Of a DNA stretch of 64,000 nt, positions 341 through 27,396 are shown one piece after another. The notes under the pieces are model-generated. The model did not search any database. It saw only the letters and a program-made list of their open reading frames with translations, and was not told the origin of the DNA. The stretch is from Parabacteroides sp. (lineage in GTDB: Bacteria; Bacteroidota; Bacteroidia; Bacteroidales; Tannerellaceae). A program made the position numbers and the translations under genes. The stretch is taken from assembly GCA_017481945.1 (NCBI GenBank), contig JAFUOJ010000011.1, positions 1-64,000 of the forward strand, given 5' to 3'. Within the stretch, counting starts at the first letter, position 1. Each line of letters begins with the position of its first letter.

Positions 341-509
341 GTGTCAGAGTTGTTTGACAAAGTATAACGCAGAAAATTGGTGCAATCTCAAAGTCGCCAA
401 ATCGTTACCAACAACCATCTACCGTAGCATTCGCTATTTGTGTATCAGTTAGATACGGAATAATTGATTATCCGATGCAAAGATAAACATTCACTAAACA
501 CACACTTTT

Positions 510-3290
510 ATGAGAAAAAGATTCACCATTTTAGTAGGGCTTATTGTATGCTTCCTAAGTAATTATGTTTTTGCAGAAAACATACCTCTTCCAGAACATC
601 CACGTCCTGACTTCGAGAGAAGTAATTGGATAAATCTTAATGGAGAATGGGATTTCACTTTTGATAAACAGAAGGGAGAAAAAGCGATTCAAAGTAAGGG
701 AGCAACAGACTTCGAATATAAAATCAAAGTTCCTTTTAGCTGGGGAAGTCCACTTTCCGGAGTTCCCGATAAAGGAGATCAAGGTTGGTACACTCGTTCT
801 GTTACTATTCCCAAAGAATGGGAGGGGAAACGTATCTATCTTATTATTGGAGCTTCTGAATGGGATACGCAAGCTTGGTTAAATGGAACCCCTATAGGAA
901 ATCATAAAGGAGGCTATACCCCTTTTGAGTTTGAATTAACTGAACATATCACAGCTTACGGACAACCTCAAAATCTGGTAATCAGTGCAGATGATACCGC
1001 CAACGATAAACGTCTTGGAGGAAAACAGGGATATGGAAATGCACGTGGTATCTGGCAGACTATTTATCTGGAAGCCCGTGGAAAAAACTTCATTGACTAC
1101 GTACATTTTAGTCCAGACATAGATCGTTCTGTTGTCAAAGTTGAAGTTGGATTAAACCAATTACTCGAAAAGGCCAACGCACTTCGCCTCCACTTCCAAA
1201 ATGGAGAACAAGCTGATTTCATTTACACCCCCAAAGGAAAAGCCCGCAAATCATTGGTTCATACCTTTGAAGTCAAACTGGAGAACCAGCAGTTATGGGA
1301 TCTTGATAATCCTTATCTATACGAAATGGAGATGGCTTTAACAAACAACACACAAACTGTAGACGCAGTGAAAACCTATTTCGGACAACGTAAAATCAGT
1401 GTCACTAACCTACCGGGGACTACCTATCCTTACATCTCTTTAAACGACAAACCGGTCTACTTACAGCTATGTTTGGATCAAAGCTACCACCCCGAGGGAT
1501 ACTACACCTTCCTTTCAGACGCTTTTATGCGTGAAGAGATCATGTTATCTAAACGCTTAGGGTTAAACGGGAATCGTATCCATATCAAAGTGGAGTTACC
1601 ACGCAAACTTTATTGGGCAGACCGCTTAGGACTACTGATCATGGCAGACGTCCCGAACTGGTGGGGCGACATTGATGAGTTTGCTAAAAACGATTGGTTA
1701 CATTGTATGCGTCAGCAAATCAAACGTGATTACAATCATCCTTCTATCTTCTCTTGGGTGGACTTCAATGAGACTTGGGGACTTTTCACCAAGATTGATG
1801 GTCAAAAAATATACAAGCCGGAAACACAAGAATGGGTAAGAGAAATGTATCATCTGACAAAACAGCTGGACCCAACTCGCTTAGTTGATGAAAACTCTCC
1901 TGTTCACCACGACCATGTAGAAAGCGATCTTAACTCATGGCACATTTATTTACCGGGATACGCTTGGGAAGATACTCTCAAACATTTCTGTAACAATACC
2001 TTCCCCGGATCTAACTGGAACTACATCGGAAACAATAAGCAAGCCAATGTACCGATGTTTAACAGTGAATGTGGTAATGTCTGGGGATACAAGGGTAGCA
2101 CAGGAGACGTTGATTTAACATGGGATTATCATCAAATGATTAATGCATTCCGTGCATACCCACAATGCTCTGGTTGGCTTTACACCGAACATCACGATGT
2201 CATCAACGAATGGAATGGCTATGTTCGCTACGACCGTACGTCCAAAACATTTGGATTAGACGAATTCGTCCCCAATATGACCATCACAGACTTCCATAGT
2301 CCTTACTATATTGCTCCACGCTGCAAACTAATGCAAGAGGTACAGGCAGGAAGTCAAGTCGAAATTCCTTTATTCTTATCCGTTATGACCGATAAAACTC
2401 CTGGAACGATGAGTGTCGAGACCTCTATTGCCGGATGGAATGAGGTTGGACAAGAGATAAAGGAGATCTCAGTTGGTCGTTCTACTGTTGATTTCAAACC
2501 GTATATGAACGAACTTATCCAACCTGCTCATCTAACCTTACCTCAGCAGAACGGTTTATATGTTGTTCGCTTCGTCCTTCGTGGGAAAGCCGGCAACGTG
2601 TTGAATCGGAACTTCGTTCTCTATCGAGTGAGAGATGGTAAGAAACTATCAGACGTTCAACCGGTCCTTCAGCTTTCATTTGCCCCCAAAAGCTATAGCC
2701 AAGCCCAATGGAGCATGAAGCAATGGAACGTAATGGACGGTAAAAAAGTAAACGGAGCCGGCAATGGTTTCTTTGAATATCAGGTTCAACTTCCTACAGA
2801 TTTAGATCTTGACAAGATTGAAAACGTAGTCTTAGCTTTTGAAGCCTCTGCGAAGACACTTTTCGGGAAAGATAAAGAGGGGGCTAACATCGAGCACGCC
2901 GACTTAGACTTTATGGTCGGAAAAGGGACTTACGACCCTTGTAAGAATCCGAACTCTTACGCACAAACAGATGAGAGAAAATTCCCTTCTCAAATACAAG
3001 TCACTGTAAACGGAAAGACTTGCGGCATGATCTCTTTGGAAGATGATCCGGCTGACCATCGCGGTGCACTCTCTTGGTTCTCTCAGGAAAAGAACAGAAG
3101 ATTACAAGAAGCTGGTTCCTACGGGTATCTAATTGAAGTAAACGTTCCCAAAGAGGCTCTCCAAGCCGGAGGAACAGCGACTGTACGCTTTGAGGTTCCT
3201 CAAGGTTGTAACGGAGGTTTAGCTCTCTACGGAGAAGATTTTGGACGTTACCCGATGGATCCTACTTTCATTTTCAATCTAAAGAAGTAA
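510..3290 (+). CDS. Secreted GH2 family glycoside hydrolase (beta-galactosidase/glucuronidase-like)
   Basis: The 926-residue protein starts with a signal peptide (residues 1-22, ending YVFA). Then come a GH2 sugar-binding jelly roll (about 30-200, beginning RPDFERSNWINLNGEWDF), an Ig-like GH2 domain, the TIM barrel (about 315-600) and a long C-terminal region of unknown fold. The likely acid/base is E421 in FNETWG, after an HPSIFSW motif. The likely nucleophile is E520 in FNSECGNVWG. GH2 enzymes remove terminal beta-linked sugars with retention; the substrate (galactoside, glucuronide or other) cannot be read from sequence. It is probably periplasmic. The next gene begins 22 bp after its stop and may be co-transcribed. 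No SusC/SusD pair is adjacent, so this is not a classical polysaccharide utilization locus. Confidence 0.85.
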   Translation: MRKRFTILVGLIVCFLSNYVFAENIPLPEHPRPDFERSNWINLNGEWDFTFDKQKGEKAIQSKGATDFEYKIKVPFSWGSPLSGVPDKGDQGWYTRSVTIPKEWEGKRIYLIIGASEWDTQAWLNGTPIGNHKGGYTPFEFELTEHITAYGQPQNLVISADDTANDKRLGGKQGYGNARGIWQTIYLEARGKNFIDYVHFSPDIDRSVVKVEVGLNQLLEKANALRLHFQNGEQADFIYTPKGKARKSLVHTFEVKLENQQLWDLDNPYLYEMEMALTNNTQTVDAVKTYFGQRKISVTNLPGTTYPYISLNDKPVYLQLCLDQSYHPEGYYTFLSDAFMREEIMLSKRLGLNGNRIHIKVELPRKLYWADRLGLLIMADVPNWWGDIDEFAKNDWLHCMRQQIKRDYNHPSIFSWVDFNETWGLFTKIDGQKIYKPETQEWVREMYHLTKQLDPTRLVDENSPVHHDHVESDLNSWHIYLPGYAWEDTLKHFCNNTFPGSNWNYIGNNKQANVPMFNSECGNVWGYKGSTGDVDLTWDYHQMINAFRAYPQCSGWLYTEHHDVINEWNGYVRYDRTSKTFGLDEFVPNMTITDFHSPYYIAPRCKLMQEVQAGSQVEIPLFLSVMTDKTPGTMSVETSIAGWNEVGQEIKEISVGRSTVDFKPYMNELIQPAHLTLPQQNGLYVVRFVLRGKAGNVLNRNFVLYRVRDGKKLSDVQPVLQLSFAPKSYSQAQWSMKQWNVMDGKKVNGAGNGFFEYQVQLPTDLDLDKIENVVLAFEASAKTLFGKDKEGANIEHADLDFMVGKGTYDPCKNPNSYAQTDERKFPSQIQVTVNGKTCGMISLEDDPADHRGALSWFSQEKNRRLQEAGSYGYLIEVNVPKEALQAGGTATVRFEVPQGCNGGLALYGEDFGRYPMDPTFIFNLKK

Positions 3291-21122: not shown

Positions 21123-21743
21123 TTATTTTAGTCTAAAAGGAACATATACCGAGAACATTAAATCAGAAAGATGACCTTTACGACCTAAAGAGGCACCATC
21201 ATTAAAATGCTTCAAAGTATTTAAACAACCATATTGATAAGACAGGGACAATTCACAATGGTTGCTTACCCGATAACCCACTTTCGCCAAAACACCCAAA
21301 TCAAATACAGCTTTCGGTTGTACATAAAGCGTTGGAGCAATACCCAAACCAACATGGAATTTATCTGTCAAACGGTAATTCCAACTACCAGCAATCGAAA
21401 TAGGCATAATAAACTCACTGAATTTATTATCCTCACCGTTTACATAACCAGCTCCTTTCTCATTTGAATAAAATGGAGAACCTTTACGAGTACTCATTCC
21501 TTGAAAACCGACTGTCAAATCTAAATCATAAAAAGATTTTTGTGCCGGAAGAAAACGAAAACGATAACCAACCGAACCATTTCCCTTCAGATTATGATCA
21601 AACTGTAGTTCTTCCGAAGGTGGAACAATGTTCTGTTTATCCTGCATCGGAAAACCGATACCACCACCTATTAACACACCCTGTTCAACTTGGCCAAATA
21701 CTGAAGTTGAAACCAACATTAAAAGAAATACTAACCTTTTCAT
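21123..21743 (-). CDS. Small outer membrane beta-barrel protein
   Basis: The 206-residue protein has a signal peptide (about 1-18, TSVFGQ) and alternating amphipathic strands such as GSVGYRFRFLP, FYDLDLTVGFQG, IAGSWNYRLTDKFHVGLGIAP and CELSLSYQYGC, ending on a hydrophobic strand VYVPFRLK. It fits an 8-strand porin-like outer membrane barrel of the type frequent in Bacteroidetes. It lies downstream of a TPR-HTH regulator on the same strand. A decayed copy lies at 25392-25504 downstream of the second regulator, which suggests that regulator and barrel form a module. Function unknown. Confidence 0.7.
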   Translation of the reverse strand: MKRLVFLLMLVSTSVFGQVEQGVLIGGGIGFPMQDKQNIVPPSEELQFDHNLKGNGSVGYRFRFLPAQKSFYDLDLTVGFQGMSTRKGSPFYSNEKGAGYVNGEDNKFSEFIMPISIAGSWNYRLTDKFHVGLGIAPTLYVQPKAVFDLGVLAKVGYRVSNHCELSLSYQYGCLNTLKHFNDGASLGRKGHLSDLMFSVYVPFRLK

Positions 21744-21843
21744 ATTCATATCTATTTTATATTAAGAATATAGCCAAAAGACAAACCAAACACTATTTAC
21801 TTTTCATATTTTCTAAAAAAAATCAATTGAATACTCTTCAAAA

Positions 21844-21882
21844 AGAGCTCCATGTCTCCACTAACAGAAATCATGGAGCTCT
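21844..21882 (-). terminator. Terminator-like hairpin between the micro-ORF and the outer membrane protein gene
   Basis: AGAGCTCCATG (21844-21854) pairs perfectly with 21872-21882. On the reverse strand CTTTTTG follows. Similar hairpins with a GCTCCAT/ATGGAGC core recur at 23957-23989, 24656-24688 and 25332-25364. Confidence 0.75.
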
Positions 21883-21905
21883 GAACAAATAGGCATAGTT
21901 TTATC

Positions 21906-21977
21906 TTACCCTATTATAATTGGAAATTGACAGTATATACATCTACAGTCACAAGAGTATAAAACAATCTTTCTCAT
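21906..21977 (-). CDS. Candidate 23-residue Cys-containing micro-ORF
   Basis: The predicted peptide starts MRKIVLYSCDCRCIYC and ends FPIIIG, with four cysteines in eight residues. It is worth listing only because of its frame: a well-formed promoter (22005-22036, reverse strand) sits 28 bp upstream and an intrinsic terminator (21844-21882) 24 bp downstream, so a short independent transcript of about 150 nt is predicted. The transcript could equally be a non-coding RNA or a leader with an attenuator for the barrel gene. No homologue is recognised. Confidence 0.25.
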   Translation of the reverse strand: MRKIVLYSCDCRCIYCQFPIIIG

Positions 21978-22004
21978 ATACGCATTTATTAAAAACCTCG
22001 ATTG

Positions 22005-22036
22005 CAAAAGTAGAGGAGATAATTGACATCCACAAA
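22005..22036 (-). promoter_or_regulatory. Promoter downstream of regulator 1
   Basis: Reverse-strand TACTTTTG (22005-22012) and TTTG (22033-22036) are 20 bp apart. It points towards the micro-ORF and the outer membrane protein gene and lies just after the regulator stop at 22144. Confidence 0.65.
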
Positions 22037-22143
22037 AACGGGTAAAAAACATATGGACAAAGCCCCTTTTCTATATGGACAGTTCCATAAAACAGCACTG
22101 ATTATCAGCACTATTCATTTCCTCTCTAAAGGGCAATTATTAA

Positions 22144-23862
22144 TTATACAGACAAACGATTTTTAACAAAATCCAAGGAGCAATCAACAAGAAAATTCCG
22201 AATAGTCACACCACTTTTTACCAAATCTAATTTCTGACGTACTCTCAATCGACGTTTATTTACAGAATCAGAGCTAATATTCAACAAGATAGCCTCTTCT
22301 TTCAACGAAAGCTCTAAGAAACTTAAATAGCAAGTCTCCACCTCGGAATGTGTCAAATTTACCGAACGTTCTTGTAGAAAAGTTAACCAATCCGGACAAG
22401 CAGAGTCTATTAATCCTTTTAAATTCTCCCAATCGCTCTCAGACAAAGCCTGCATTTCATCCTTTCCCCGTTTTTTACTCTGTTCTTTCAAGCGAGAAAA
22501 CAAAGTTGAATATTGTAATTTATCACATTTCAATCTAATAATAGATTGCTGTATCTCTTTCATCTGACAATAAAGATCTTGTTTCTTTTCTTTCTCCGTT
22601 GTCATAAAAGCCTCCTTACTTTCCATCTCTTTTCTTAATTGGAACAATTGGCTTTCTTTCTCATCTAATAATTTCTGTTGATAATTAATTGCTCGAAGTC
22701 TTTTTTGTTCTATAGTCAGATAAACTAAAACACACGTAAAACAAGTAAAAACGAGAATTGCAATCAATCGATATCGACTATTTTGTAACCTTCTATTTTC
22801 TTTATGTAGAGTCACCAAATTATGCCGTTTCTCGGCATCTATTATATCCACCTGCTTCTGAACATCATATAAAGAATCTTTTGCTTCATGATACTGTTCT
22901 AAATATTTCAAGGCTAAAGCTGTATTTCCAGCCTCCTCTTCAACTAAATAGCCAACATATAATCGGTCTGTAGGAACATACAGATTATCAACCTTTGTCA
23001 AATGGTCTATTTTATCTAAATAATATCGTGCGGAATCCAACAAATCTATCTGATAATATAAAACACTTAATGCCAAATAATTAGAAGCATTATTCCAACC
23101 TATCTTTTCACCATAACTCAAACTTAATTCATAACAGAATTTAGCCTTTTCATATTCTTTTTTCTTTTCATAAATATTTCCCAAACAATTCTTTATAGAA
23201 AGCATTCCCTCCAAATCATTCATTTCTGTTATTAAAGAATCTGCTTTTAACGCAATGTCAAGAGCTAAAGGCAAAGAATCCTGATATGTATATGTTTTAG
23301 CCACATCTCGTAAAGCAAATGCATAGCTTTTTATATTTCCAGCTTTTAAGAAATACTCTGCAGCTTCTTTAAATTTTCGTTGTTCTTCTGAATTCTGTCC
23401 CGTATAAAGATATAGATCAGCCATATAACTACATATAAAGCCAGCCACATTATATAGCCGTTCCTCCTTCGCAAGATCTAATGCATCCAAATAGGTATTC
23501 ACAGCCGGAATAAAAAGTTTATCTTCTGCATAAGAACGTCCTAAGTACAAACCGATCCAAGCTTCTTGTTCAGCAGTTCCATATTTTCGATACCAAGCCA
23601 ATGCACGATTTAATTGCTCTACATACAGCATATCTTTATACAGTTTATCTGCCGTTCGACAATACAGCATACAATAACGAGCAAATAACCTATTATTCAA
23701 TAAGTCAGGAGATTCTATCTTATTTAATAAGACATAAGCACTGTCCGGATTCACACCCAAGACTTTTTCAACTTCATTTAATTGTTCATAAGCCACTCGA
23801 TTCTCTTTGCAAGAGAAGAACGGCCACAAAGACAATAGGATAAATAACACAGTGTGCTTCAT
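22144..23862 (-). CDS. Trans-envelope TPR regulator with C-terminal HTH, copy 1
   Basis: The 572 residues begin with a lipoprotein-type signal (lipobox FFSC, C18). About 320 residues of TPR-like helical repeats follow (for example EAWIGLYLGRSYAEDK, YNVAGFICSYMADLYLYTG, IKSYAFALRDVAKTY), then one transmembrane segment (about 360-382), a long coiled coil (about 385-450) and a C-terminal LuxR-like HTH (EEAILLNISSDSVNKRRLR, about 520-545). This puts TPRs outside the cytoplasm and a DNA-binding domain inside, a one-protein signalling chain. Such regulators are known in Bacteroidetes; their ligands are not. A close paralogue is encoded at 25729-27396. Confidence 0.78.
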   Translation of the reverse strand: MKHTVLFILLSLWPFFSCKENRVAYEQLNEVEKVLGVNPDSAYVLLNKIESPDLLNNRLFARYCMLYCRTADKLYKDMLYVEQLNRALAWYRKYGTAEQEAWIGLYLGRSYAEDKLFIPAVNTYLDALDLAKEERLYNVAGFICSYMADLYLYTGQNSEEQRKFKEAAEYFLKAGNIKSYAFALRDVAKTYTYQDSLPLALDIALKADSLITEMNDLEGMLSIKNCLGNIYEKKKEYEKAKFCYELSLSYGEKIGWNNASNYLALSVLYYQIDLLDSARYYLDKIDHLTKVDNLYVPTDRLYVGYLVEEEAGNTALALKYLEQYHEAKDSLYDVQKQVDIIDAEKRHNLVTLHKENRRLQNSRYRLIAILVFTCFTCVLVYLTIEQKRLRAINYQQKLLDEKESQLFQLRKEMESKEAFMTTEKEKKQDLYCQMKEIQQSIIRLKCDKLQYSTLFSRLKEQSKKRGKDEMQALSESDWENLKGLIDSACPDWLTFLQERSVNLTHSEVETCYLSFLELSLKEEAILLNISSDSVNKRRLRVRQKLDLVKSGVTIRNFLVDCSLDFVKNRLSV

Positions 23863-23956
23863 TGATAGATTTTTGTTAGATTGTTTTATTTCGGGACCAA
23901 GATAACAATTATTCTTATTCTTTTTAAAGAAATCGTAGAGAAAATTATTTAGAATA

Positions 23957-23989
23957 GCTCCATACCTCTACCCAAAGAGAACATGGAGC
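23957..23989 (-). terminator. Repeated GCTCCAT hairpin after secreted protein 1
   Basis: GCTCCAT (23957-23963) pairs with ATGGAGC (23983-23989), with inner pairing CTCT/AGAG. It is followed by a weak T run on the reverse strand. The same element is found after the paralogous gene and after the decayed barrel gene. Confidence 0.5.
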
Positions 23990-24010
23990 CAAACAAATAG
24001 GAATAAAAGT

Positions 24011-24580
24011 TTACCACCATAAACGAACATTCAGGTCCTCCTCGGGTATATTATCGTTCAAAATATCTTTCAAAGAATAACACAAAATATACCGATGATA
24101 ATTTGCCCCTTCAAATATAACTTTAGATCCATTTATTGCTATATAACAATGCTCTTTTATTCCACGATCCAAATTTTCTATCGCAACTACAGGTATTATT
24201 AGATCTTGTTGATAAGTAAAATACAACTCTAAAATCTTCCCCTGTTCATCAAAATAAAGATCAAACCTAAAAAACTTTTTACTATCAGCATATTCAGGTT
24301 TTAGATAAGGTTTTATATTTTCCTTTAACAACCGACTCAAAACATCCATATTCTTTAAAAACATTGTAGGATATGGATACATTACAAAATCTCCTTGAGG
24401 CGTATCTTCCAACTTCGAACCTTCTTCATATACAATAAATGAATTAAATTGTACTCCATATTTTGAATTATGTTTCAAATAAACATAACTCGAATGAATT
24501 GCCTTCAATGTATCACATTCAGATTGAGCATAAAGACCCTGACTTAAAAATAAAAACAATAAAAACAACACACCCTTCAT
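24011..24580 (-). CDS. Small exported protein of unknown function, paralogue 1
   Basis: The 189-residue protein has a signal peptide (residues 1-18, GLYAQ). The mature part holds a single early Cys (SECDTLK), a basic/aromatic middle and a C-terminal part (FDLYFDEQGKILELYFTY then IENLDRGIKEHCYIAI) that vaguely recalls the TonB C-terminal fold, ending in an aromatic RLWW. I do not recognise the family. It is a tandem duplicate of the gene at 24712-25263, including the promoter and 3' hairpin. It lies directly upstream of regulator 1 on the same strand, so the protein is a candidate ligand or effector of the TPR regulators (inference). Confidence 0.65.
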   Translation of the reverse strand: MKGVLFLLFLFLSQGLYAQSECDTLKAIHSSYVYLKHNSKYGVQFNSFIVYEEGSKLEDTPQGDFVMYPYPTMFLKNMDVLSRLLKENIKPYLKPEYADSKKFFRFDLYFDEQGKILELYFTYQQDLIIPVVAIENLDRGIKEHCYIAINGSKVIFEGANYHRYILCYSLKDILNDNIPEEDLNVRLWW

Positions 24581-24655
24581 AATATCTCTGATTTGTTACG
24601 AATACTTTCCGAAGATACATATTTTACTTCATATACTAACTTTAATTATTAAGAA

Positions 24656-24688
24656 GCTCCATACCTCTATTCAAAGAGAACATGGAGC
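24656..24688 (-). terminator. Repeated GCTCCAT hairpin after secreted protein 2
   Basis: GCTCCAT (24656-24662) pairs with ATGGAGC (24682-24688), 24 bp beyond the stop at 24712. The surrounding 53 bp at 24610-24662 are identical to 25286-25338. Confidence 0.5.
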
Positions 24689-24711
24689 CAAAAACAAATA
24701 GAAATAAAAGC

Positions 24712-25263
24712 TTACCACCATAAACGAACTTTCAGATCTTCTTCGGATATATTTTCATTAAAAATATCTTTCAAAGAATAAGTAAATATATACCGATGAT
24801 AAGCAGCACCTTCAAATATATTTTTAGGACCACTAATTGCTATATAACAATTCTCTTTTATTCCACGATCCAAGTTTTCTATTGCAGATACAGATATTAT
24901 TAGATCTTGTCGATAAGCAAAATACAACTCTAAAATCTTCCCCTGTTCGTTAAAATAAAGATTAAACCTAAAATTGTTTCCAAAACCGATATGTTCTGGT
25001 TTAATATAAGGCTTAATATTTTCTTTCATCAACCGACTCAATATATTCATGTTTTTCAAATACATAGTAGGATATGGAGGAGACATTGAAAAATCTCTTT
25101 GATCCTCTCTATCCCATTTTGAGTTCTCTTCATAGACATGAAACTCATCGCTATATTTTCTATAAATATAATTAGAATGAACACCTTTTAAGGTGTCACA
25201 TTCAGATTGCGCATAAAGGCTCTGACCTAAAAATAAAAACAATAAAAATAACACACCCTTCAT
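24712..25263 (-). CDS. Small exported protein of unknown function, paralogue 2
   Basis: The 183-residue protein is collinear with the 24011-24580 product: same signal peptide (MKGVLFLLFLFLGQSLYAQ), same SECDTLK start of the mature chain, same YFNEQGKILELYFAYRQDL core and the same RLWW end. Differences cluster in the region about residues 30-70, where copy 2 is shorter. The start at 25263 matches copy 1; the in-frame codon at 25296 lies upstream of the conserved N-terminus, within the duplicated promoter region. Clustered divergence in one segment may mark a surface that faces a partner. Function unknown. Confidence 0.65.
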   Translation of the reverse strand: MKGVLFLLFLFLGQSLYAQSECDTLKGVHSNYIYRKYSDEFHVYEENSKWDREDQRDFSMSPPYPTMYLKNMNILSRLMKENIKPYIKPEHIGFGNNFRFNLYFNEQGKILELYFAYRQDLIISVSAIENLDRGIKENCYIAISGPKNIFEGAAYHRYIFTYSLKDIFNENISEEDLKVRLWW

Positions 25264-25331
25264 TATATTTGATTTGCTACTAATACGAAGATACATATTT
25301 TACTTCATATACTAACTTTAATTATTAAGAA

Positions 25332-25364
25332 GCTCCATGCATCTATTGAAAGATAACATGGAGC
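25332..25364 (-). terminator. Repeated GCTCCAT hairpin after the decayed barrel gene
   Basis: GCTCCAT (25332-25338) pairs with ATGGAGC (25358-25364). It belongs to the same family as the hairpins at 23957 and 24656 and lies 3' of the relic at 25392-25504. Confidence 0.5.
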
Positions 25365-25391
25365 TAAAGACAAATAGGAATAAAAGTTTAC

Positions 25392-25504
25392 TTTTCTAAT
25401 TAGCAATAGAAAAAATTATTTTAGTCTAAATAGAACATATACAGAGAACATCAAATCCAAAAAAATGACCTTTACGAGTTTTCATCCCTTGAAAACAGAC
25501 TGTC
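25392..25504 (-). pseudogene. Relic of the 206-residue outer membrane protein gene
   Basis: The segment matches two separate parts of the intact gene (21123-21743) joined together. One is the 3' end, with stop at 25416-25418 and FRLK preserved; the other is an internal stretch around 21480-21510. The junction falls exactly on ACCTTTACGA (25468-25477), a word present twice in the intact gene (21174-21183 and 21480-21489). So 306 bp were lost between short direct repeats. One extra base near 25460 also shifts the frame, and the 5' half is missing. It lies downstream of regulator 2, as the intact gene lies downstream of regulator 1. Confidence 0.85.
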
Positions 25505-25728
25505 GATACAACAACTTGTTTTTTCTCATAATTTTAATTATTTAAATTCGAAGGCAAAAGTAGAAAAAAGGGAATACCACCCCCTGAAAACCCCTAATTC
25601 CGACATGGACAGTCCTTATTTACAGCAAGGGCGTGAACAACTGATATTCAATCAGTTATCCACACCCCTACAATCAGTATATAGACCAAATAGGGTTTAT
25701 CTATATGGACAAACAGACTGTTATCTAT
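25505..25728. other. Intergenic remainder downstream of regulator 2
   Basis: No supported gene is present. It contains a reverse-strand TACTTTTG box (within 25552-25562) at the place that corresponds to the 22005-22012 promoter, but without the -33 TTTG. The 76-residue forward frame at 25605 overlaps the regulator 3' end and looks accidental. Confidence 0.5.
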
Positions 25729-27396
25729 CTAATTTCCAACAGTTAACAGATAGTCATGTAAACTCACAGCGGTATTGGTCAAATTTAGCTTCTGGCGTGC
25801 TCGAAGACGGCGTTTATTGGCAGAATCCGGATTAATATTTAGAAGAATTGCCTCCTCGTTTAAACTCAGCTGTAGGAAGCTTAAATAACAAATTTGTTTC
25901 TCTGCTTCCGTTAAATTCAACGGATTTTTCTCCATAAAAGTAGCAACCTGCGGGTAAATAGATTGAATCAAAACAATCAAGTTTCGCTCATCATTTATTT
26001 TCAATACATTCTTTTTCTCTGTATCTACCTTTTGACATTGACGTTTCAATTTCCGAACCAAAGCCGATGTTTGCAGTTTATCATTCCGTAAATTAGCAAT
26101 ATCCGATAAAACTTGATCTCTTTCTTTTCGAACCCGCTCTAAAGTTCCTAACTCCATATCTTTTTCTTGGATTCTTTGATTTAATAGGATTAACAGTCTC
26201 TCTTTTTCCTCTAACAATAACTGTTTTTCATTTATTTTCTGTAATCGTTTCCGTTCTTGAATCTGATAAACCAATACACATACAAGAGAAAGTATTAGAA
26301 TGAGTCCACACAATACATATTTAACATATTGTAATTGTCTATTTTCCTCCAATAACGCAACAACATTATGCCGTTTTTCTGCGTCTACAATATCCACTTG
26401 TTTTTGAACATCATACAAAGAATCTTTCGCCTCTTGATATTCTTCTAAATACTTCAAAGCTAAAGCTGTATTTCCAGCCTCCTCTTCGATTAGATAACCA
26501 ACATAGAACCGATCTGTAGAAGTATAAGGATTAGCTAAAGGAGTATTTACTTTCTCTAAATAATAACGAGCTGAATCTAACTGATCCATCTGATAAAATA
26601 AATTACTCAAAGCTAAATAGGTTGGGTAAACATCTATCGTATCATCATAATTTAAACTAACTAAATAATAACTCTTTGCTTTTACAAATTCATTCATTTT
26701 TCTATAAATATTCCCCAAACCGTTTTTTACAGAAGATATTCCTACTGAATCTTTTGTACTCATCATAATAGAATCAGCTTTTAACATGGTATTAAGAGCT
26801 AAAGACAAAGAATCTTGAAAAACAAAAGTTTTAGCTACATCTCGTAAAGCCAAAGCATAACTATTTATATTTCCGGCTTTGTTAAAATACTCAGCTGCTT
26901 CTTTATATTTTCGTTGTTCTTCAGATTCCTGTCCTGTATAAAAATACAAATCTCCCATATAACTACAAATATATCCTGCGACATTATACAGTCGCTCCTT
27001 TTTGGCAAGATCCAAAGCTTCCGAATACGTATTTATTGCCGGAACAAAAAGTTTATCTTCTGCATAAGAACGTCCTAAATAGAGTCCCATCCAAGCTTGT
27101 TGCTCGACAGTTCCATTTTTTTGATACCAATGTAATGCACGTGCTAACTGTTCTGTATAAAGTATCTTTTTAAACAATTTATCTGCGACCTGACAATAAA
27201 GCATACTATAACGAGCAAATAATTGATCATTCCAACGATCCGGAGACTCAATCTCATTTAATCTGGTATAAGCACTATCCGGATTAGTTAAAAAAATCTT
27301 CTCAACTTCATTCAGTTGTTCATAAGCCATTCGCTCTTCTTGGCAAGAGAGGAGTGGCAACAAAGACAATAAAATAAATAATACAGTGTGTTTCAT
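25729..27396 (-). CDS. Trans-envelope TPR regulator with C-terminal HTH, copy 2
   Basis: The 555-residue paralogue of 22144-23862 has the same lipobox-type start (LLSC, C18), the same TPR array (AWMGLYLGRSYAEDK, YNVAGYICSYMGDLYFYTG, INSYALALRDVAKTF), a transmembrane segment (about 352-379), a coiled coil and an HTH (EEAILLNINPDSANKRRLR, about 512-534). N-terminal half and HTH are strongly conserved between copies. The coiled coil and the TPRs around residues 230-300 differ most, which would allow different inputs with a similar DNA target. Its downstream barrel gene is decayed. It is divergent from the TonB receptor gene at 27548. Confidence 0.78.
   Translation of the reverse strand: MKHTVLFILLSLLPLLSCQEERMAYEQLNEVEKIFLTNPDSAYTRLNEIESPDRWNDQLFARYSMLYCQVADKLFKKILYTEQLARALHWYQKNGTVEQQAWMGLYLGRSYAEDKLFVPAINTYSEALDLAKKERLYNVAGYICSYMGDLYFYTGQESEEQRKYKEAAEYFNKAGNINSYALALRDVAKTFVFQDSLSLALNTMLKADSIMMSTKDSVGISSVKNGLGNIYRKMNEFVKAKSYYLVSLNYDDTIDVYPTYLALSNLFYQMDQLDSARYYLEKVNTPLANPYTSTDRFYVGYLIEEEAGNTALALKYLEEYQEAKDSLYDVQKQVDIVDAEKRHNVVALLEENRQLQYVKYVLCGLILILSLVCVLVYQIQERKRLQKINEKQLLLEEKERLLILLNQRIQEKDMELGTLERVRKERDQVLSDIANLRNDKLQTSALVRKLKRQCQKVDTEKKNVLKINDERNLIVLIQSIYPQVATFMEKNPLNLTEAEKQICYLSFLQLSLNEEAILLNINPDSANKRRLRARQKLNLTNTAVSLHDYLLTVGN

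Follow-up and report, generated by a model that had tools for sequence, protein, structure and literature searches.

The window studied here, i.e. the 64,000-nucleotide stretch at positions 1 to 64,000 of contig JAFUOJ010000011.1 (Parabacteroides sp., assembly GCA_017481945.1), carries on its minus strand two paralogous regulator genes, REG1 and REG2, which flank two tandem genes for small exported proteins, SEC1 and SEC2, and are accompanied by an outer membrane protein (OMP)-like gene. The open reading frame (ORF) list places all five features where a preliminary description of this DNA had put them, and the paralogy is real in both cases, with 61% identity between the regulators over residues 1–561 and 73% between the exported proteins. 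What do such regulators sense, and which genes do they control? The preliminary description took the secreted proteins, or peptides processed from them, as ligands of a self-sensing system. Comparison with related loci makes us lean, without great confidence, towards another answer, namely that REG1 and REG2 are local trans-envelope regulators with a swappable sensor, the exported DUF3244 protein as partner and the adjacent operon as target.

REG1 and REG2 are predicted trans-envelope proteins related to the BT3442 family

Both regulators begin with a lipobox that ends at Cys18 (FFSC and LLSC), a residue invariant in all 20 alignment rows, and both match tetratricopeptide repeat (TPR) profiles and contain a single hydrophobic helix, best started at residue 366 in REG1 and 361 in REG2. 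The AlphaFold2 model of REG2 (mean predicted local distance difference test score, pLDDT, 85.1; predicted template modelling score, pTM, 0.56) displays paired helices across residues 39–307, a single long helix at 310–412 that holds the transmembrane (TM) segment, and C-terminal helices at 482–490, 497–508, 512–519 and 523–536. In the 15-residue stretches on either side of the TM segment, lysines and arginines number 5 (before) and 4 (after) in REG1, and 2 and 5 in REG2. By prediction, REG1 and REG2 thus have the trans-envelope layout of an outside sensor, one TM helix and a cytoplasmic domain, and the lipobox, the single TM helix and the model would place the TPRs outside the cytoplasm, as had been proposed.

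The lipobox, TPRs, single TM helix and coiled coil of the earlier anatomy were all recovered, whereas its 'LuxR-like' helix-turn-helix (HTH) is a resemblance, the GerE (LuxR) profile matching one of nine C-terminal pieces at E 0.098. Sigma70_r4_2 matched four of the nine (best E 0.0041), and HTH profiles matched 3 of 20 full-length proteins (best E 0.038). A search of the C-terminal region against solved structures gave nothing better than E 0.24, with a response regulator at 0.37 among the matches.

Each regulator aligns to positions 1–560 of the 563 of NF053779, the NCBIfam profile of the BT3442 family, and so has its full-length architecture. Since their scores (338.5 bits for REG1, 344.6 for REG2) are far under the cut-off of 940, they are regarded as relatives, not members, of that family. 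In the tree REG2 joins the regulators of genomes G023 and G030 (support 100/99), and REG1 stands on its own branch within the 12-row clade of REG2. REG matches at E ≤ 0.001 occur in all 38 Parabacteroides genomes searched, up to 13 per genome; several are C-terminal only, to longer proteins, and matches to the TPR region were found in at least 34 genomes among the matches listed. Members over the BT3442 cut-off are present in 5 of 41 genomes of a second genus, here termed Bacteroides-like because its regulators exceed that cut-off, as that of Bacteroides ihuae does.

DUF3244 is the usual downstream neighbour

The gene most often following these regulators encodes DUF3244 (PF11589 in Pfam, by which it was identified), a small exported immunoglobulin (Ig)-like protein with solved structures (4g5a, 3d33 and 3sd2). 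It is the next gene in 24 of 37 regulator rows above 400 bits, with a regulator fragment intervening in one; two of the rows stop at a contig edge. When the 38 Parabacteroides genomes were searched with a DUF3244 alignment (E ≤ 1e-6), 46 of 50 matches lay directly downstream of a REG gene on the same strand; the other four comprised one divergent from an adjoining REG, two at contig edges and one without a listed REG. The Bacteroides-like genus yielded 16 of 22 directly downstream. Counted from the regulator side, 46 of 105 tabulated REG places have a listed DUF3244 match behind them, a tally whose thresholds miss some copies, e.g. the one on contig 45 of the window's own genome, which directly follows that genome's third regulator in the usual order. 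DUF3244 is divergent from the regulator at G023:C9:37046-38592 and at L160 6720-9162, so that the linkage survives a change of orientation. Identities between DUF3244 proteins in three compared pairs were 82, 83 and 27%.

An order-wide PF11589 search was left out of the linkage count because many of its matches fell in long ORFs, of hundreds to more than 3000 residues; these may reflect a possible likeness of DUF3244 to type IX secretion sorting tails. The contig 45 locus of the own genome (L159; G000 contig 45, 28000-39714) runs from REG and DUF3244 into genes that carry NTP-transferase, LicD, glycosyltransferase (weakly LanC-like in part) and VKOR/thioredoxin domains; next comes an ORF whose beginning resembles C39 by eye, and the locus may be a cluster for an exported peptide.

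Exchangeable secreted cargo follows

Behind DUF3244, or directly behind REG, stand lipoproteins of several unrelated families, including DUF4848 and a C10 protease, as well as OMPs, S74-type proteins and a C25 protease. Cargo in the second genus comprises C10 proteases, MACPF proteins and radical-SAM or C39 peptide clusters; in the window it amounts to the two SEC genes and the OMP-like gene, which is homologous to OMP cargo in related modules. Between the syntenic loci G014b, G059b and G021b the lipoprotein has been swapped for an unrelated one. In L060, L205 and L206 a C10 gene comes after DUF3244, with the REG–DUF3244 pair directly before the protease genes at L205 8429-13745 and L206 2436-5988, and at L196 780-6204 such a pair is directly before two MACPF genes. 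Distant regulators head radical-SAM/SPASM clusters at L162 6726-14001 and L199 2290-6301 and a C39-transporter cluster at L188 6519-13892; DUF3244 is present in L188 and L199, and an exported protein of similar size in L162. Short ORFs with Gly-Gly and cysteines in L162 and L199 give these loci the look of those for ribosomally synthesised and post-translationally modified peptides. HU-like DNA-binding/DUF4469 genes lie within or beside the cargo at L068 8426-9175, L073 4693-5472 and L061 8421-9206.

Repeated boxes stand at a preferred distance from the downstream promoter

Boxes like TGTCCATAT recur downstream of REG stop codons. In 17 of 35 such regions, the window's two included, a TGT(CC/CT/AC) box begins 47–50 bp ahead of TAnnTTTG, which we take to be the Bacteroidetes-type -7 consensus, and this was so in none of the 34 regions upstream of REG. 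Shuffled sequences gave a mean of 0.084 and a maximum of 2 at this spacing in 500 rounds, and a maximum of 3 when the best window anywhere was taken. Because pattern and spacing had been chosen on the regions tested, a motif-free control was added, in which any repeated 6-mer counted if its proximal copy lay 46–50 bp ahead of a -7 element. A first set of 34 regions (mostly Parabacteroides, some other families, window excluded) gave 21 positives, against a shuffle mean of 6.4 and with that count reached in 0 of 200 shuffles; the second genus, a set unused in motif finding, gave 8 of 18 (mean 2.5, reached in 1 of 200). Offsets of 26–30 and 56–60 bp were not raised, their counts being reached in at least 25 of 200 shuffles.

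The REG1 boxes of the window fit well, lying 22 bp apart with the proximal copy starting 47 bp before the -7 element. The box varies by clade (TGTCCAT, TGTCCTAT, TGTACAT or TTGTCA) and keeps a similar position, a pattern that would be expected of regulators with a site each of their own; in the distant clade z it takes the form of repeated TTGTCA, the TGTCA of the copies beginning 49 and 38 bp ahead of the -7 element (counted on G059z). A TGATWATCA palindrome between the REG stop codon and the boxes in several loci (e.g. L061, L068, L075 and window 22107-22099) is possibly the site of a second factor.

The middle TPRs are mosaic

Differences between the REG1 and REG2 ectodomains are densest, by 80-residue windows, at residues 210–290 (0 of 2000 permutations), and those between SEC1 and SEC2 peak at 41–80, so the variable zones that had been described do exist. 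The same permutation test for the densest 80-residue ectodomain window was applied to all 21 regulator pairs of at least 62% identity, window regulators excluded. A locally replaced segment in the mid-TPRs (~190–320) was found in nine of these pairs, which share members and hence are not independent, from six of eight clades; the densest window of the positive pairs begins at 188–242 (p ≤ 0.0005). At the DNA level, the regulators of G023 and G030 are 64–67% identical over nucleotides 681–880 and 91–99% in windows outside 581–880. Other replaced blocks run from ~nucleotide 601 onwards in G022d/G024d, from ~401–501 onwards in G017f/G016f, and over 601–1000 in G059z/G014z. No mid-TPR cluster separates REG2 from the regulators of G030 (p 0.99) or G023 (p 0.10).

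Two regulators of one genome (G011a and G011b, loci L068 and L071) are alike in the N-terminal TPRs (92%) but not in the mid-TPRs (50%) or the HTH-like region (46%), a block replacement between paralogues.

SEC1 and SEC2 belong to a rare family

Neither Pfam nor NCBIfam yields a match to the SEC family at E values up to 1. Searches covered 59 relatives, 38 congeners, 393 Bacteroidales genomes and plasmids. Among the congeners it occurs in three genomes, each time sharing a module with a near relative of REG, and was found nowhere else; in G023 and G030 it follows the REG module near genes for two similar lipoprotein-like proteins, with neighbours unlike those in the window, so that the link between SEC and REG is real though rare. 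The order-wide search added one match in a 963-residue frame (E 2.8e-4) and one in a 902-residue frame (9.8e-4), both limited to the N-terminal part and probably due to chance, and no SEC was found among the plasmids searched. Pattern scans of species genomes and viral contigs gave none either, but were insensitive, missing a known copy in L087. AlphaFold2 on four sequences did not predict a fold (mean pLDDT 48.7; model unused), and the comparison with solved structures gave nothing better than E 0.17.

All three SEC genomes carry it in a REG module, but a presence in three of 38 Parabacteroides genomes, against 38 of 38 for REG, does not support a general ligand, and a widespread one finds no backing in the relatives, congeners, Bacteroidales genomes or plasmids searched. 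Between G023 and G030 the SEC gene has two diverged windows (75% and 58% DNA identity, 81–98% in the remainder) beside the diverged mid-TPRs, which is the only sign that the mid-TPRs may pair with SEC. Mid-TPR replacement also occurs in loci and clades where no SEC was found. SEC1 and SEC2 look like rare passengers, not a general signal of the regulator family.

Layout of the window

The candidate elements are collected in Table 1. The assembly is 83% complete, and the 21 named relatives' loci used for comparison are from Parabacteroides (19) and Tannerellaceae (2).

Table 1. Features of the REG/SEC locus in the window
Feature	Position	Strand	Details and basis
REG2, TPR-TM-HTH-like regulator, 555 aa	25729..27396	-	ORF list, profile matches, AlphaFold2 model
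REG2 parts	lipobox Cys18; TPRs ~39-307; TM ~361-379; HTH-like ~482-536		prediction
REG1, REG2 paralogue, TPR-TM-HTH-like regulator, 572 aa	22144..23862	-	ORF list, profiles
SEC1, small exported protein, 189 aa, orphan family	24011..24580	-	signal peptide MKGVLFLLFLFLSQGLYAQ, judged by eye
SEC2, tandem SEC1 copy, 183 aa	24712..25263	-	likely start MKGVLF at 25263; frame open from 25296
Small OMP-like beta-barrel gene	21123..21749	-	PF13505 E 0.0014, under cut-off
REG1-side operator candidate	22051..22081	-	direct repeat TGTCCATAT (22081-22073) + TGTCCATAT (22059-22051), 22 bp apart
REG1-side -7 element, Bacteroidetes-type	22005..22012	-	TACTTTTG
REG2-side proximal operator candidate	25603..25611	-	TGTCCATGT; starts 49 bp ahead of -7 element
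REG2-side further box	25711-25703	-	TGTCCATAT; 100 bp upstream of proximal box
REG2-side -7 element	25555..25562	-	TACTTTTG
Relic zone behind REG2-side promoter	25416..25529	-	ATG MRKNKLLYRQSVFKG stop, running into decayed OMP gene in two pieces
Short Cys-rich ORF, 23 codons, directly behind REG1-side promoter	21906..21977	-	MRKIVLYSCDCRCIYCQFPIIIG; read from sequence
Hairpin	25331..25365	-	AGCTCCATG...CATGGAGCT; read from sequence

No DUF3244 gene lies behind REG1 or REG2, and by comparison with L041 and L043 the usual DUF3244 and lipoprotein genes are absent behind the REG2-side promoter. Short ORFs beginning MRK occupy the DUF3244 position behind both regulators; the one at 21906-21977, standing where many relatives carry DUF3244, is probably a remnant, and less likely a peptide gene. 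An outer membrane barrel gene had been assigned to each regulator, intact in one case and a relic in the other. The relic is real, its two pieces (~61 and ~37 bp) each being 89% identical to stretches of the OMP gene, whereas the intact gene is a weak match to its family and starts 395 bp from REG1 on the far side of a hairpin, so a transcript shared with the REG1-side promoter is not required. Similar GCTCCATG...CATGGAGC hairpins at ~25331-25365, 24656-24688, 23957-23989 and 21842-21881 stand one past each small gene unit, with SEC2 and SEC1 each followed by one and another lying upstream of the OMP gene, and a related one is present in G023/G030; read by eye, this recurring hairpin resembles a module-boundary or terminator-like element. 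The dN/dS values (ratio of nonsynonymous to synonymous divergence) are well below 1 for REG1/REG2 (0.294/1.305) and for SEC1/SEC2 (0.171/0.555), by which the REG and SEC genes look maintained.

Discussion

In the reading that we favour, REG1 and REG2 would be inner-membrane one-component transcription regulators, probably activators rather than repressors, related to BT3442, and each would regulate the operon directly behind its own gene. A periplasmic TPR superhelix would act as the sensor, its signal would pass through the single TM helix and coiled coil, and the C-terminal HTH-like domain would bind a short direct repeat whose proximal copy stands ~49 bp before the -7 element; position, spacing and the weakly backed DNA-binding end point to this role. 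The common operon would run from REG through its own promoter to DUF3244 and then to exchangeable secreted cargo. Because DUF3244 stays while the cargo changes, its linkage suggests that it is most likely a dedicated periplasmic partner that would contact the TPR domain as feedback ligand, co-sensor or cargo monitor. The replacement pattern is consistent with the middle TPRs being an exchangeable specificity segment that reads a variable cue, whether self, host or rival. Of this layout the window modules retain the regulator, boxes and -7 element, without DUF3244 or the lipoprotein, and SEC1, SEC2 and the OMP-like gene would be the remaining cargo.

Several results weigh against this reading. 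Its weakest point is the DNA-binding end, which HTH profiles back weakly. Boxes at 47–50 bp are absent from 18 of the 35 downstream regions, which as related sequences are not independent of one another; in the motif-free control 46–50 bp is not the sole peak, since offsets 36–40 are raised too (11 of 34, reached in 7 of 200 shuffles; 8 of 18, reached in 1 of 200), as is 66–70 in the first set (10 of 34, 3 of 200). The REG2 boxes, 100 bp apart, fail the motif-free repeat test, though the proximal one lies at 49 bp. As many as 59 of the 105 REG places have no listed DUF3244 behind them, both window regulators included, and a mid-TPR cluster fails to reach p ≤ 0.0005 in 12 of the 21 regulator pairs, among which are all six pairs of clade h and the only pair of clade a. 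The divergence of DUF3244 follows that of the N-terminal TPRs about as closely as that of the mid-TPRs (partial correlations 0.37 and 0.40), so that its co-variation with the variable segment is not specific and was dropped as a sign of pairing.

The alternatives differ mainly in what the TPRs would read. That SEC1 and SEC2, or peptides cut from them, are secreted self-signals matched to REG1 and REG2 in their variable zones draws on the confinement of SEC to REG modules amid differing flanking genes (window versus G023), on the joint local divergence of mid-TPRs and SEC between G023 and G030, and on the lack of DUF3244 where SEC is doubled. We nevertheless judge it very unlikely: 35 of the 38 Parabacteroides genomes lack SEC but have one REG match or more apiece (some C-terminal only), mid-TPRs are replaced in clades without a found SEC, G030 carries both DUF3244 and SEC, and no mid-TPR cluster parts REG2 from its G030 relative. 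With both SEC genes on the downstream side of REG2, no one-to-one pairing can be seen, and the SEC fold was not predicted. A regulator that senses its own lipoprotein or other cargo accumulating in the periplasm, with sensor and cargo swapped together, would account for the unrelated lipoproteins at the syntenic G014b, G059b and G021b loci, and REG sequences, too, change in blocks; mid-TPRs are slightly more alike among loci sharing a lipoprotein family (label permutation p 0.029, 11 same-family pairs), a weak result that includes one close pair. Mid-TPR and lipoprotein do not co-vary, however, in G024h/G022h, whose regulators are 93% identical (mid-TPR 95%) and whose lipoproteins have no mutual match at E 0.01, nor in G014b/G059b, with mid-TPRs 81% identical and lipoproteins likewise unmatched, which makes cargo sensing quite unlikely.

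Somewhat less unlikely, in our estimate, is that the mid-TPRs respond to something external, from the host, the diet or a rival's peptide, or that they evade a hostile binding protein, such as one of a phage or a bacteriocin, with DUF3244 as just another exported product. Diversifying selection would yield just such replacement of an exposed segment between conserved flanks, and proteases, MACPF proteins and peptide clusters are among the cargo; yet this view leaves unexplained why 46 of 50 DUF3244 matches adjoin REG. BT3221-23 (DUF3244, DUF4848 and a hypothetical protein) were reportedly lowered together in an iron experiment, but the values given next to the fold changes, 0.437 for BT2221 and 0.002 to 0.084 for BT3221-23 (PMC10434189), make the iron response uncertain. 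Ordinary decay, i.e. duplicated regulators and leftover cargo with no particular function, would explain the loss of DUF3244 and lipoprotein genes behind both regulators and the OMP relic. It seems the most improbable of these accounts, given intact REG and SEC genes with dN/dS well below 1 and the retained boxes and -7 elements.

One-component membrane regulators and periplasmic TPR sensors are already known. SusR, CadC and ToxR combine an external sensor, a single TM helix and a cytoplasmic DNA-binding domain; REG differs from them in its TPR sensor, C-terminal HTH-like region, lipobox and adjacent target operon. RRNPP regulators (Rap, NprR, PlcR), to which the preliminary description compared REG, are cytoplasmic, act on imported peptides and have an N-terminal HTH or none. 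The TPR superhelix is common to both, and Rap and NprR are among the fold matches of the REG2 model, but they rank (4gyo at 27, 5dbk at 34) below the general TPR proteins LGN and kinesin light chain. As the HTH-like region of REG is C-terminal and its TPRs are predicted outside the cytoplasm, REG is not assigned to RRNPP. As to a small cognate peptide gene of the RRNPP kind, the candidates beside the regulators are the genes for the exported proteins of 189 and 183 residues and the 23-codon ORF, the last a probable remnant. FimS of Porphyromonas gingivalis senses through periplasmic TPRs and weakly resembles REG2 in sequence (E 4.4e-6), but it is a two-TM histidine kinase working with FimR, where REG carries an HTH-like C-terminus. 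Its ligand is called an open question in one account (PMC11053733).

The closest known system lies in Bacteroides thetaiotaomicron, where BT_3442, whose family profile REG1 and REG2 align to nearly full length, stands at one end of the BT_3442–BT_3433 cluster. BT_3442 is described as a multi-domain TPR protein clustered with BT_3441, a homologue of the 3d33 Ig-fold protein, and with MACPF and lipoprotein genes; in the portion available, that account names no transcription factor and no operator (PMC2954219). The window modules differ in their cargo and in lacking DUF3244. Two published clusters fit the order REG, DUF3244, cargo: BT_3442–BT_3433, and BT2221 with the C10 protease gene btpZ. BT2221 is annotated as DUF3244 (PMC10434189) and, as btiZ, ends 14 bp before the protease gene and was proposed to be a staphostatin-like inhibitor of BtpZ (PMC3462683). 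That DUF3244 precedes many non-protease cargos favours a role as regulator partner over one as protease inhibitor. The literature searched, from which subscription journals were mostly excluded, yielded no account of the link between regulator and DUF3244, of the box at a preferred spacing or of the replaced sensor segment.

A bolder version of the favoured reading, which we hold to be doubtful, would make these proteins a large undescribed class of gut Bacteroidales regulators, each with DUF3244 as partner and one adjacent secreted arsenal, whose hypervariable, recombining mid-TPRs serve strain-specific recognition of self or rival. If the proposal of local regulators is true, DUF3244, a family with solved structures, would gain a role, and it would be explained how gut Bacteroidales may switch secreted systems such as C10 proteases, MACPF proteins and peptide clusters locus by locus. 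The replaced mid-TPR segment would then give a definite starting point in the search for what a periplasmic TPR sensor reads.

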